Below, piece by piece: positions 7,553 through 19,813 of a DNA stretch of 30,366 bases. The stretch is from a virus. The notes under the pieces are model-generated. The model made no database searches and was not told the DNA's origin. It saw only the letters and a program-made list of their open reading frames with translations. Where the stretch lies: the IMG/VR virus record IMGVR_UViG_3300044675_003597, positions 1-30,366 of that record. One strand, 5' to 3'. The translations under genes and the position numbers were made by a program. Position 1 is the first letter of the stretch. Every line of letters begins with the position of its first letter.

Positions 7553-8806
7553 ATGGAAAAGAGAACAGACGTTCTAAAAATCGCCTGGACGTCGAACGCG
7601 CCCTGGGCGGGGACAGGCTACGGATCACAGACCGCCGAGGTCGTCCCACTTCTTAAAGAGGCGGGCCACGAAGTCGCGATCCTCGCGAACTATGGCCTCG
7701 CGGGATCGACGCTCGGATGGAACGATATCCCCGTTCTTCCCCAGGGGATCGATGGTTATTCGAACGATCTAACTCCCGCCCAGATCGCGAACTTTATTGG
7801 TAAGGATGAAAAAAATTTCGGCGGCGGGATAGGGATAACCCTCTTCGACGTGTGGGTCTACAAATCTCCACAATGGGACGAGATCCCTCTTCTCTCCTGG
7901 ACTCCTGTCGACCACGGTCCACTCCCACCCGACGAGGTGGTCGCCTTCTTTAATCGACCTGGTCGGAAGTGGTCGGTCGCGATGTCGAAGTCGGGAGAGA
8001 AGTCTCTCCTCGATGCGGGCCTCTCGCGCGACCGCGTCTTCTACGCGCCCCACTCATTTAACCCAGAGACGTTCCACCCTGGACCGTCGTCGATGCGCGC
8101 GAAGATGTCGATCCCAGAGGACGCCTATATGGTGATCACGAACGCGGCGAATAAGGGGAACACCCCGATTCGAAAGTGTTTCCCAGAGATGGCGGCCGCT
8201 ATGTCGGTCTTTATGTCTCGGCATCCCGACGTCTTCTGGTATCTCCACACCGAAGGATCGGGGATCGCGAACGGAGTCCGTATCGACCGACTTCTCTCCG
8301 CGATGCGGATTCCACTCGACCGCGTTCGCATCGTTCCCCAGTACGAATACCGAATGGGGATCGACCATAAAGTCGTCGCGGATCTAACCCGCGCGGCGGA
8401 CGTCTCCTTACTCACGTCTCGCGGGGAGGGGTTCGGACTACCACTCCTGGAATCGAACGCGGTCGGTGTCCCAGGAATCGGGACACGATGGACGGCCCAG
8501 GAAGAACTAATCGGCCCAGGTTGGGCGATCGATGGACAGTTGGAATGGGACGAGTTCCAGGGTTCGTTCTGGAAGGTCCCGAATATCGAAGCGATCGTCG
8601 CCGCCCTCGAAGAGTCCTACGCCGAGAAGGGAACAGAGAAGGCGAAGGCGCGGTCCGCCGCCGCCGTCGCCCACGCCGCGCCCTACGAAACGCGGAAGGT
8701 CTTCGCGAATCATTGGGTCCCGATCCTGGATCGGATGAAGGACGAACTTCGGAAGACGCCTGTCGCCCAGGGTCCTAACCGCGCCGCGCGTAGGGCGGCG
8801 AGGTAA
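7553..8806 (+). CDS. Glycosyltransferase, GT-B fold (GT4-like), inside the structural operon
   Basis: This 417-residue enzyme would transfer a sugar from an activated donor. It has a GT-B N-terminal half (KIAWTSNAPWAGTGYGSQTA, then EAGHEVAILANYG) and a C-terminal donor-binding half. The latter carries the GT4 E-x7-E motif at E292 and E300 within RGEGFGLPLLESNAVGVP. AAGGAGGGAGAG precedes the ATG. The C-terminus ends PNRAARRAAR, an NRAxRR-type tail I associate with actinobacteriophage proteins. Lying between capsid and connector genes, it may decorate a virion protein such as capsid, tube or fibre. Acting on phage DNA or the host surface is also possible. Substrate and acceptor are unknown. Confidence 0.9.
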   Translation: MEKRTDVLKIAWTSNAPWAGTGYGSQTAEVVPLLKEAGHEVAILANYGLAGSTLGWNDIPVLPQGIDGYSNDLTPAQIANFIGKDEKNFGGGIGITLFDVWVYKSPQWDEIPLLSWTPVDHGPLPPDEVVAFFNRPGRKWSVAMSKSGEKSLLDAGLSRDRVFYAPHSFNPETFHPGPSSMRAKMSIPEDAYMVITNAANKGNTPIRKCFPEMAAAMSVFMSRHPDVFWYLHTEGSGIANGVRIDRLLSAMRIPLDRVRIVPQYEYRMGIDHKVVADLTRAADVSLLTSRGEGFGLPLLESNAVGVPGIGTRWTAQEELIGPGWAIDGQLEWDEFQGSFWKVPNIEAIVAALEESYAEKGTEKAKARSAAAVAHAAPYETRKVFANHWVPILDRMKDELRKTPVAQGPNRAARRAAR

Positions 8807-16853: not shown

Positions 16854-17036
16854 ATGCCTTCCGAGTTTATTAGCATCGTCGGACAATGCGAGACGGAGGA
16901 CTGTCTAAACTTCGGCGTCGAGGTCTATCTCTCGTCGCGACTAGACGAACACGGATGTCTCCCGTGGTGGGTGTGTGGAGTGTGTACGATGGAACTTATT
17001 CCTAACCCACATCCTAACGAAGAGGAGATCGAGTAA
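16854..17036 (+). CDS. Small cysteine-rich protein, putative zinc finger
   Basis: This 60-residue protein has AAGGAG nine bases before the ATG. It contains C12 and C17, then C35 and a CGVC pair, with an acidic tail, so it could bind one zinc ion. Similar small proteins occur after fibre genes in phages, with no assigned function. Its stop overlaps the next start (TAATG), which ties it to the lysis genes. Confidence 0.6.
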   Translation: MPSEFISIVGQCETEDCLNFGVEVYLSSRLDEHGCLPWWVCGVCTMELIPNPHPNEEEIE

Positions 17037-17203
17037 TGTCCCCGACGAGCGTCCAGAAGATTATCGACCGTCTCGATTCACACTCGGAGAAGATCGACGA
17101 GATTCGTCGAGACCTGGATCGCATTATGGGAGGCGTGGCCGTAATCGGATTCATCCTGGGCGCGGGTGTTCTGGCGGCGATTCTTAACATCCTCGGCCAG
17201 TAA
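17036..17203 (+). CDS. XhlA-like small protein: coiled coil plus one membrane segment
   Basis: This 55-residue ORF overlaps both neighbours (TAATG at each end). Residues 6-30 form an amphipathic helix ([19 protein letters not shown]). Residues 32-52 are a single hydrophobic segment. This is the architecture of XhlA-type phage lysis accessory proteins, which work with holin and endolysin at the membrane. The placement before other lysis genes agrees. The family link is by architecture rather than a diagnostic motif. Confidence 0.68.
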
Positions 17204-18216
17204 TGCGGCGACTCTCTGTCGTCCTCTCCGCCTTCCTTCTTCTGTCCTTCGTCCCGTCCGCCCGCGGCGGGATGTGGAACTACGTCGAGTCTCCGACCGA
17301 CTTCTGGGTCGAACTACCAGAGGCCGCGGTCCTCGATGCGCGGACCGTTCTCTGTTATCCCGAACCCGTCGCCTCCTGTCCTGGACTCGTCGACTCCCAC
17401 CTCTGGATCTATTCCGAGGCGGGCGATCTCCTCGCCGCGAACGATGATTCCCTGGGCGAATACGGATGGACTCTCGCGTCCCATATCTCGATCGAACTTC
17501 CCGCGGGTCGATATCGAATCCGCGCGGGTCGGTGTTGCGGGAATCCCGACGCGGCCTGGAACCCTTCCTTCGGCTACTACCTCGCGACCTCTGTCGACGC
17601 GGTCTCGACCGTCTCTCCGTCTCCGTCCGTAGAACCCTCCGTCGAACCGTCGATCGAACCCACCCAGGAACCGACTCCAACCCCGACAGAGGAACCCTCT
17701 CCAACACCCGAACCGACCCCAGAACCCACCCCGACCCCGTCTCCTAGCGTCCCCGTAGAGACACCAACGCCGCCCGTAGAGGCGTCCCCGACCCCATCCC
17801 CGAGTCCTACACAGGTCCCAGAAACGCCCTCGCCTACGCCTTCTCCCACGCCTACGGCCACTCCCGCCCCAACTCCACCTCCTCCACCATCCCCGACCGA
17901 ACCTCCGCCCACCCCGACAGAACCACCTCCGAGTCCAACCGAACCTCCACCGACGCCCACCGAACCTCCTCCCGCGATCGAACTCCCGTCTCCCGACGAG
18001 GTAGTCGCCGCCGTTGGAGAGGCGGTCGACGCGGCGGTCGCCGCCGTCGGAGAGGCCGCGGCGAAGGTCGCCCGACTCGGAACAGATCTAACACCCGAGG
18101 AGCGGGAGGAGATGGCCGCGCCTGTCGTCGCGTCGGTTATTATTTCCCAGGTCGGAGGGGCGATCGCCGCGGCGAGTGTCCAGGGATCGGGACCTAGAAG
18201 TCGAAAGGGTCCATAG
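17203..18216 (+). CDS. Exported proline-rich protein with a beta domain and C-terminal anchor
   Basis: The 337-residue protein begins with a clear signal peptide ([21 protein letters not shown]). A compact beta-rich domain follows (about 25-125), with paired cysteines ([15 protein letters not shown]) and strands like pre-peptidase C-terminal or lectin-like sandwiches. A long Pro/Thr/Ser/Glu linker (about 140-263) comes next, ending in four PTEPPP heptads. After that is an Ala-rich amphipathic helix, a hydrophobic stretch ([20 protein letters not shown]) and a short basic tail. It should be exported, span the wall with its linker, and stay anchored. The gene lies among lysis genes without an obvious enzyme motif. 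Superinfection exclusion, lysis timing or adhesion are possible, and I cannot choose among them. Confidence 0.75.
17893..17976 (+). repeat. Four 21-base repeats encoding PTEPPPx
   Basis: Four consecutive units encode PTEPPP plus T, S, T and A. Codons differ between copies, so the amino-acid repeat is kept while the DNA varies. It is the last part of the proline-rich linker. Confidence 0.85.
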
Positions 18217-18413
18217 TGAAGACCTTCCTTAACCGTCTCCGTCCCTATATCTCCGAGATCGTCTCGGGTTCCTGGGTGATCTTTGGCCTCCTGGTCGCGT
18301 GGATGCTAACCCCCGAGGGGGAGTCGCGCGATACAATCGGGGCCGCCCTCCTCGCGTTGTCGATTGTCTGGGCGTTAACGATGCCGATCCGACTCGGAGG
18401 CGGCGAGAACTAA
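18216..18413 (+). CDS. Two-segment membrane protein, holin candidate
   Basis: This 65-residue protein starts at GTG 18216, overlapping the upstream stop (TAGTG). It has two membrane segments, about residues 17-32 (SGSWVIFGLLVAWMLT) and 42-58 (GAALLALSIVWALTMPI), joined by a short acidic turn, with a basic N-terminus. This is class II holin architecture. Several other membrane proteins surround it, so which one forms the lysis hole is undecided. Confidence 0.68.
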   Translation: MKTFLNRLRPYISEIVSGSWVIFGLLVAWMLTPEGESRDTIGAALLALSIVWALTMPIRLGGGEN

Positions 18414-18425
18414 AAGGGGGAACAG

Positions 18426-18647
18426 GTGAACAGAGAGACCGTAATCGTCTACACAGTCGCGGCCCTCGTCGCGGCGGTCTTCGCCTACCTGGTATCGATT
18501 CCGACAGGCATCGTCGCGGGTCTCTCGACGATCGGCGCGACGGTTCTTCTCTGGCATCTCTTCGACACGGTTCGCGGCGCGGTCGCGTCGCATTACGAAA
18601 AGAAGTTCGCGCCGAAGAGGGACGAGTCTAGGAGTTCCGCGCTGTGA
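18426..18647 (+). CDS. Second small membrane protein, holin or antiholin candidate
   Basis: This 73-residue protein starts at GTG 18426 after AAAAGGGGGAACAG. Residues 5-25 and 27-47 are hydrophobic, and the C-terminal third is charged (HYEKKFAPKRDESRSS), as in holins and antiholins. The stop overlaps the endolysin start in GTGA, so the two are translationally coupled. Role is inferred from location and topology. Confidence 0.68.
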   Translation: MNRETVIVYTVAALVAAVFAYLVSIPTGIVAGLSTIGATVLLWHLFDTVRGAVASHYEKKFAPKRDESRSSAL

Positions 18648-19813
18648 AGTTCCGCGTTAAATCGCAACTCGACCACATCGAGAAAGGCGGCATCCTCGAC
18701 GATTGCGGTCCCTCATCCGTAGCGATGCTCGTCGCCTGGGCGTCCGCGTACCAGATCGACCCGACGGCGGGCGACGGAATCGAAATGAAGAAGAAGATTA
18801 CAGGCCAGAAGGACATCGACGGGAAGTCCGATAACGGTTCCTCCCTCGCCCAACTAATCCAGGTCGCCCGAGGATTCGGGGCGAAGGCGCGATGGGCGAA
18901 GTCGTGGGAGGACGTCGTCGCCTCCGCCAAAAATGGCGCGGGCGTGGGCGTGTGGGTCGAACAACCCGCGGGATACCCAGAGGGACAGGAGGTCTCCGCC
19001 TGGCACGAAAAATGGAAGAAGTGGTGGTGGGTTAAACAGAAACAACCTCGACGAACTTACGGCCATATGACGGCCTCGGGATTCGACGTCGAGGAGGGGA
19101 CCTGGTACTGGGCCTGTCCCACCCGCTCGGGTAAGGGGGCGGAGGCGTTCGGTGTGAAGATCTCCGAGGCGAACCTTCGGAAGATCGCGGACTCGAAGAG
19201 GGTCTCGGGTAAGACGAAGACGCCCGACTTTAAACATACGATCATCGTCGAATGGCCAGGTCGAAACGTCGCCCCAGTTCCACCGACGCCCGTCCAGGTT
19301 CCGACTCCTGTCGCGACGCCGCGCGCGTCTATCGTCGAGGTCCTGGATACGAAACCCGTCGCGCCTGTTAAGGCGGTCGAGGTAGTCGCGCCGAAGAAGG
19401 CGAAGGACGAGTCGAAGTTTAAGGAAGAGATCGACGCCCTGGGTCGGGTCGACTGGGGATCGAAGGCGGACGAGGCGGGGAAGATCCTCGCCCGAGGACT
19501 AGAAGAGACAAGGGGAAAGAAAATGATCGACAAGATTAAGTGGATCTTCGCGAATACAGGTATCGACGAGGCCCTGTTAGAGGCGGCCCGAGTGGGTCTC
19601 TCGACAGGGATCGCGGTAATGCTCGCAACAGGCGCGCCGATTCTCGATATGACGGCCGAGGATTTCCGAGTCGTAGGTTCGGGCGCGATCGCCGCGACTC
19701 TCCAAGTGATCGTCCGCGCCCTTAATCCCGACGACCCGAAGTTCGGAGTCGGTAAGGCGAAGGCGGTCCGCGCCGCGGAGAAACTCGCCGCCCTGGGTAC
19801 ACGCGCGAAGTAA
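18644..19813 (+). CDS. Endolysin: papain-fold (C39-like) peptidase with a holin-like C-terminal domain
   Basis: The 389-residue protein has a cysteine-peptidase N-terminus. ILDDCGPSSVAML places the nucleophile at C21. YGHMTASGF places the catalytic His at H141, followed by an Asp in GFDVEEG. It should cut peptide cross-links of peptidoglycan. Residues about 205-245 form a Pro/Val linker, followed by a charged helical stretch. Residues about 294-389 hold two hydrophobic segments (VGLSTGIAVMLATGAPIL and VVGSGAIAATLQVIVRAL), resembling r1t-type holins rather than a wall-binding domain. No signal peptide is visible, so release would need a holin. An in-frame internal start exists at 19523. GTG start overlaps the upstream stop. 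Confidence 0.83.
   Translation: MKFRVKSQLDHIEKGGILDDCGPSSVAMLVAWASAYQIDPTAGDGIEMKKKITGQKDIDGKSDNGSSLAQLIQVARGFGAKARWAKSWEDVVASAKNGAGVGVWVEQPAGYPEGQEVSAWHEKWKKWWWVKQKQPRRTYGHMTASGFDVEEGTWYWACPTRSGKGAEAFGVKISEANLRKIADSKRVSGKTKTPDFKHTIIVEWPGRNVAPVPPTPVQVPTPVATPRASIVEVLDTKPVAPVKAVEVVAPKKAKDESKFKEEIDALGRVDWGSKADEAGKILARGLEETRGKKMIDKIKWIFANTGIDEALLEAARVGLSTGIAVMLATGAPILDMTAEDFRVVGSGAIAATLQVIVRALNPDDPKFGVGKAKAVRAAEKLAALGTRAK
19523..19813 (+). CDS. Embedded, in-frame internal product: predicted 96-residue r1t-like holin
   Basis: Within the endolysin frame, AAGGGGA at 19510-19516 lies six bases before ATG 19523, a near-ideal ribosome site in an A-rich stretch that stands out from the coding background. 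The product begins MIDKIKWIFANTG. It has two membrane segments separated by a short loop with LDMTAEDF and ends in a basic helix (KAKAVRAAEKLAALGTRAK), the layout of r1t-type phage holins. If used, one gene yields both a full endolysin and a separate holin. No experimental evidence is available here. Confidence 0.55.
   Translation: MIDKIKWIFANTGIDEALLEAARVGLSTGIAVMLATGAPILDMTAEDFRVVGSGAIAATLQVIVRALNPDDPKFGVGKAKAVRAAEKLAALGTRAK

Follow-up and report, generated by a model that had tools for sequence, protein, structure and literature searches.

A phage lysis gene that probably encodes both an endolysin and, from an internal start, a holin

The stretch of DNA analysed here, referred to as the window, is the 30,366-nucleotide IMG/VR record IMGVR_UViG_3300044675_003597, from an uncultured freshwater phage. 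On its + strand, an open reading frame at 18644-19813 starts with GTG and encodes a fused lysis protein of 389 aa, in which a papain/C39-like peptidase is joined by a Pro/Ala/Lys linker to a two-transmembrane (two-TM) domain of holin type. The peptidase domain takes up aa 1-204 (18644-19255), and the linker, which is poorly conserved and modelled with low confidence at aa 227-252, follows at 19256-19498. Just beyond it, a Shine-Dalgarno (SD)-like site, AAGGGGA (19510-19516), is separated by the 6 bases AAGAAA from an in-frame ATG (19523-19525) that codes for residue 294. This ATG opens an embedded reading frame of 96 aa (19523-19813) that shares the stop codon of the full-length gene. Hydropathy of the fused protein peaks at residues 310-328 and 343-361, and AlphaFold2 places the two membrane helices at residues 309-329 (19568-19630) and 338-360 (19655-19723), both after the internal ATG. 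Motif, spacing, frame and hydrophobic segments were all described in the original prediction and were confirmed. The structure model was built from a 64-row alignment and has a mean pLDDT of 81.8; a model from a six-row alignment was too poor to use (pLDDT 54.6).

Four genes lie upstream of the fused gene. The first encodes a small XhlA-like protein with a coil and one TM helix (17036-17203, + strand), the likeness being one of layout (Pfam XhlA E = 0.85), and the second a secreted Pro-rich protein (17203-18216). They are followed by T2, a two-TM protein of 65 aa (18216-18413, + strand) found in many but not all relatives, and T2b, a two-TM protein of 73 aa (18426-18647, + strand) that overlaps the start of the fused gene and is found in the nearest relatives only; both are possible holins or antiholins. 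The Pro-rich protein has a signal-peptide-like start, a PPC/secreted beta-like domain (judged by eye), a long Pro/Thr-rich stretch, a hydrophobic C-terminus and a basic tail, and from these features it could be a host-surface or wall-spanning protein. A similar open reading frame precedes T2 in several fused relatives.

The N-terminal domain was modelled with a pLDDT of 80-98 by block (AlphaFold2) and matches the C39-like structure 3erv (Foldseek E 1.5e-4). With VIA-align, the pseudomurein endoisopeptidase PeiR (Z 13.7) and 3erv (Z 11.9) were recovered. Q8, C21 (18704-18706) and H141 (19064-19066), which correspond to the catalytic Gln/Cys/His, are invariant in 52 relatives, and D148 varies among them. 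The C39-like peptidase proposed in the original prediction is therefore borne out by predicted fold and catalytic residues, which support a papain/C39-like enzyme, although Pfam gave no family for the window protein at E <= 1 and no peptidase family for 10 relatives at E <= 0.1. The peptidase domain begins at residue 1 and the membrane helices are C-terminal, an arrangement that lacks the N-terminal TM signal-anchor of SAR endolysins.

The C-terminal third had been likened to r1t holins, and here only the more general part of the claim survived. A search for the r1t family (PF16945) gave no match to the C-terminal domain of the window, to any of 34 relatives or to 28 whole records at E <= 1, with the r1t holin itself recovered at 4.6e-27 as a positive control. 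Alignment of the domain to r1t holins with hhalign reached a probability of 0.4% (E 0.14), and membership of that family was rejected. Neither Pfam, PHROGs nor NCBIfam gave a trustworthy holin match, whether the domain was searched alone or over the 34 relatives. What supports a holin-type domain is that many relatives carry it as a separate two-TM gene behind the peptidase gene, and that it matches, in structure and sequence, viral proteins named Holin (A0A6J5R152 at 62% identity, A0A6J7X250 at 41% and A0A6J5RU49 at 31%), names that are database annotations. A small two-TM protein encoded beside the endolysin gene, as the free-standing versions are, has the layout of a Class II holin, and the charge pattern of the domain is compatible with an N-in/C-in topology.

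Relatives were gathered from IMG/VR by separate searches with the C-terminal and the peptidase domain, keeping the best 80 of each (160 loci). With the full fused protein as query, five relatives were found in IMG/VR. Sorting with two HMMs gave, among the matches listed, 51 open reading frames with both domains (contig copies included) and 115 with the C-terminal domain alone; of the 60 non-redundant relatives among these matches, 32 are split and 28 are fused. In the 32 split relatives the C-terminal domain is a gene of approximately 100-150 aa that nearly always lies directly behind the peptidase gene. The open frame of this gene extends little or not at all upstream of the domain, which places the start codon opposite M294 or no more than a few residues away; AGGAG, AGGAGG or close variants precede it as SD. 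In many split loci the stop codon of the peptidase gene overlaps this SD (for example AAGTAAGGAGTCAGAATG). The downstream ATG and the peptidase frequently share a frame, and there the loss of stop codons would presumably suffice for fusion, although the direction of change is unproven. Switches between the split and the fused state number at least four on the peptidase tree and at least five on the C-domain tree. The junction also appears to be a site of module exchange, given that in two relatives (L033 and L037) a C-terminal domain like that of the window is joined to a very divergent peptidase (tree branch 2.9). Whole-record searches of 26 records found the C-terminal domain once in each, hence fused genomes have no visible free copy unless the internal start is used. 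A tblastn search of 50,697 phage records with the fused protein, a split peptidase and a split holin found no relative in an isolated phage.

Two features of the split loci are recorded separately. In L092, L093 and L094 the order is reversed, with the free holin gene ahead of the peptidase gene, and for this reason L092 was dropped as a candidate sister of L091 that differs by loss of a stop codon. In one group of free-standing holins, many (L009, L010, L016, L020, L029, L071 and L075) have at their C-terminus a DTDGDGIADELAG-like repeat similar to the TSP3/EF-hand motifs that bind calcium (Pfam TSP3_bac E = 0.037), which is unusual in holins.

Taken alone, the AAGGGGA-ATG motif is only mildly unusual. 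Its anti-SD energy (-7.6) is comparable to those of genuine gene starts in the window, and SD-like purine runs are frequent on the + strand; equally good energies are found at 16% of + strand ATGs and at 8% of - strand ATGs. Shuffling of synonymous codons gave p = 0.083 for the site of the window, and most fused genes taken singly are not significant and show a weak trend. Two in-frame GTGs of the fused gene are also preceded by SD-like sequence, at 19154 (-9.5, inside the peptidase domain) and at 19592 (-7.5), so an SD scan by itself does not single out 19523.

What lifts the internal site above chance is its homology to the start of the free-standing gene together with its retention in relatives. 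Among the matches listed, 19 of the 28 fused relatives have an in-frame ATG at the junction, and 17 of these 19 have an SD with an energy of <= -5, in varied form. These genes contain 133 further in-frame ATGs, of which 23% reach that energy (Mann-Whitney p = 6e-7, which is overstated because the sequences are related). One relative, L042, has the junction ATG and lacks a usable SD. Few linker residues are methionine (13 of 2434, 0.5%), and in the 19 fused relatives the junction ATG lies at a varying distance of 6-13 residues from the first conserved motif, which indicates that a start is kept rather than a fixed residue. The embedded holin start of the original prediction is thus upheld in most fused relatives and lies at or close to the place where the free gene starts in split ones. 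Retention in relatives, which that prediction had left to be checked, is not universal: the remaining nine fused sequences among the matches listed ('GKKGF...') have no ATG, GTG or TTG at the junction, and they form the one clade outside the 19.

This clade without a start (L044-L055, L059 and L083-L086) sits on a fast-diverged branch of the C-domain tree (length 1.33) and has the separate two-TM gene T2 at every locus, making it a natural control for the two-product idea. A second clade, L060-L070, was informative at the codon level, with 35 of 181 codons invariant overall and a single run of four invariant codon columns in the gene, ACG AAA GGA CAA, which spans the SD with its flanking bases and lies immediately upstream of the internal ATG (chance about 8e-4). 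The clade without a start is also codon-invariant in places near the junction, although the Gly codon where the SD used to be varies. Part of the L060-L070 signal could therefore stem from recombination or codon preference, and we regard this signal as supporting and not decisive.

The explanation that we favour, and consider reasonably likely from the comparative sequence evidence, is that a two-gene lysis cassette became one gene that yields a membrane-tethered peptidase and, from an internal start, a free holin. A peptidase gene and the two-TM holin gene behind it would have merged into one reading frame, with the ribosome site and start codon of the holin retained inside it. Initiation at 18644 would produce a papain/C39-like peptidoglycan endopeptidase whose C-terminal holin domain anchors it to the cytoplasmic membrane, and initiation at 19523 would produce the free 96-aa holin, so that one gene probably makes both lysis proteins. 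The free holin would accumulate in the membrane and open it at a set time, and the tethered peptidase would be part of these holin assemblies or border on them, and would reach the wall once the membrane opens. A further and more tentative proposal is that the amount of free holin relative to tethered endolysin is set by internal initiation and that both co-assemble, which would place the enzyme at the edge of the hole at the moment of opening; the two-helix domains at the C-terminus of other endolysins, those of the Enc34/M4Lys type, could be captured holins as well.

The strongest competing explanation, to which we give perhaps a one-in-several chance, is that the tethered endolysin is the sole product, that the internal ATG and its ribosome site are relics, and that T2, T2b or both act as the holin. 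T2 and T2b are indeed present in the window, the clade without a start, which always has T2, implies that a fused-only design exists, and Enc34-type endolysins with a C-terminal two-helix domain act as one protein without an SD-bearing start before that domain (PMC8943055). However, ATG and SD are kept across strongly diverged fused lineages in which the linker is not, and loss of the start coincides with the long C-domain branch, as if the role of the domain had changed only there. T2 is moreover missing from the whole records of L033, L037, L039, L040, L061 and L089, some of which are fragments, and the first four, in records of 26-31 kb, count against this alternative; no other small two-TM gene was found at the loci of L033, L037, L039, L040 and L089. 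We find it improbable that the C-terminal domain is instead an anchor or antiholin, with the short product inhibiting or tuning full-length assemblies and T2 as the real holin. Short isoforms in complex with full-length endolysins are documented (PMC9430671, PMC12203907) and the window does hold other two-TM genes, but split relatives carry the domain as a lone gene directly behind the endolysin gene, and the lysis region of several records yielded no two-TM candidate besides it. A functionless purine run before an internal Met, with the fusion possibly a contig error, is very hard to sustain even with such motifs at 8-16% of window ATGs, against fusions in dozens of independent contigs and an ATG marking the beginning of a domain that other relatives encode as a genuine gene.

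Internal endolysin starts and endolysins with C-terminal membrane domains are both known, and it is the holin as second product of the gene that appears to be new. Two-polypeptide endolysins made from one gene through an internal start include LysP7951 (PMC9430671) and the Lysin384/Lysin241 pair of Ms6 LysA (PMC3111421). The window gene resembles them in having an in-frame internal ribosome site and start between the endolysin domains, a shared stop and a short C-terminal product, and as in that class the SD-bearing start lies outside the conserved domains in most relatives. Their short product is a wall-binding or enzymatic part, whereas that of the window would be a two-TM membrane domain that is a separate gene in relatives; in the LysP7951 report, membrane domains do not come up and the word holin occurs only once, among the references (PMC9430671). 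Enc34/M4Lys-type endolysins share the order of N-terminal enzyme, linker and two-helix C-terminal membrane domain in a lysis cassette, the origin of that domain not being explained (PMC8943055). They differ in their lysozyme-like fold, Gram-negative hosts and separate upstream holin gene. The window peptidase is papain-like in its predicted fold and has no PHA02564 lysozyme-like domain, and the Enc34 gene, when checked, had no SD-bearing internal start before its membrane domain.

Other fusions are more distant. The natural holin-endolysin fusion of Clostridium sporogenes is likewise one protein, but its holin is N-terminal, it belongs to the TpeE family and comes from six genomes of one species, and no internal start is known to have been described for it (PMC9527704). 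EpicDab also has a holin-like segment within another phage protein, in that case the major capsid protein, with release by a protease proposed (PMC9671378). In the literature searched, which includes few subscription journals, no endolysin gene was found described as giving rise to its holin from an internal start. If the favoured explanation holds, embedded-gene lysis cassettes extend from wall-binding subunits to the holin itself, and annotation would miss the holin of these phages because it is hidden in the endolysin reading frame. From the series of split, fused-with-start and fused-without-start relatives, a captured holin emerges as a clear candidate source of the C-terminal two-helix domain, and the question becomes testable.

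By terminase, the nearest cultured phage is Pontimonas phage phiPsal1 (41.7% identity), which has peptidase, coil-TM, two-TM and holin genes at a position matching the lysis region of the window. Its peptidase is of the M23 type, however, the genes are separate and the C-terminal domain has no sequence match there. The terminase kinship and the shared layout of the lysis region suggest, without proving, that the host is an aquatic actinobacterium. A search of bacterial genomes gave one weak match, the fused gene L182:243-1376; its 6 kb contig had been assigned to a Rhodobacteraceae MAG and is likely to be a binned phage contig. At 7553-8806 a glycosyltransferase gene directly follows the major capsid gene, as it does in phiPsal1.
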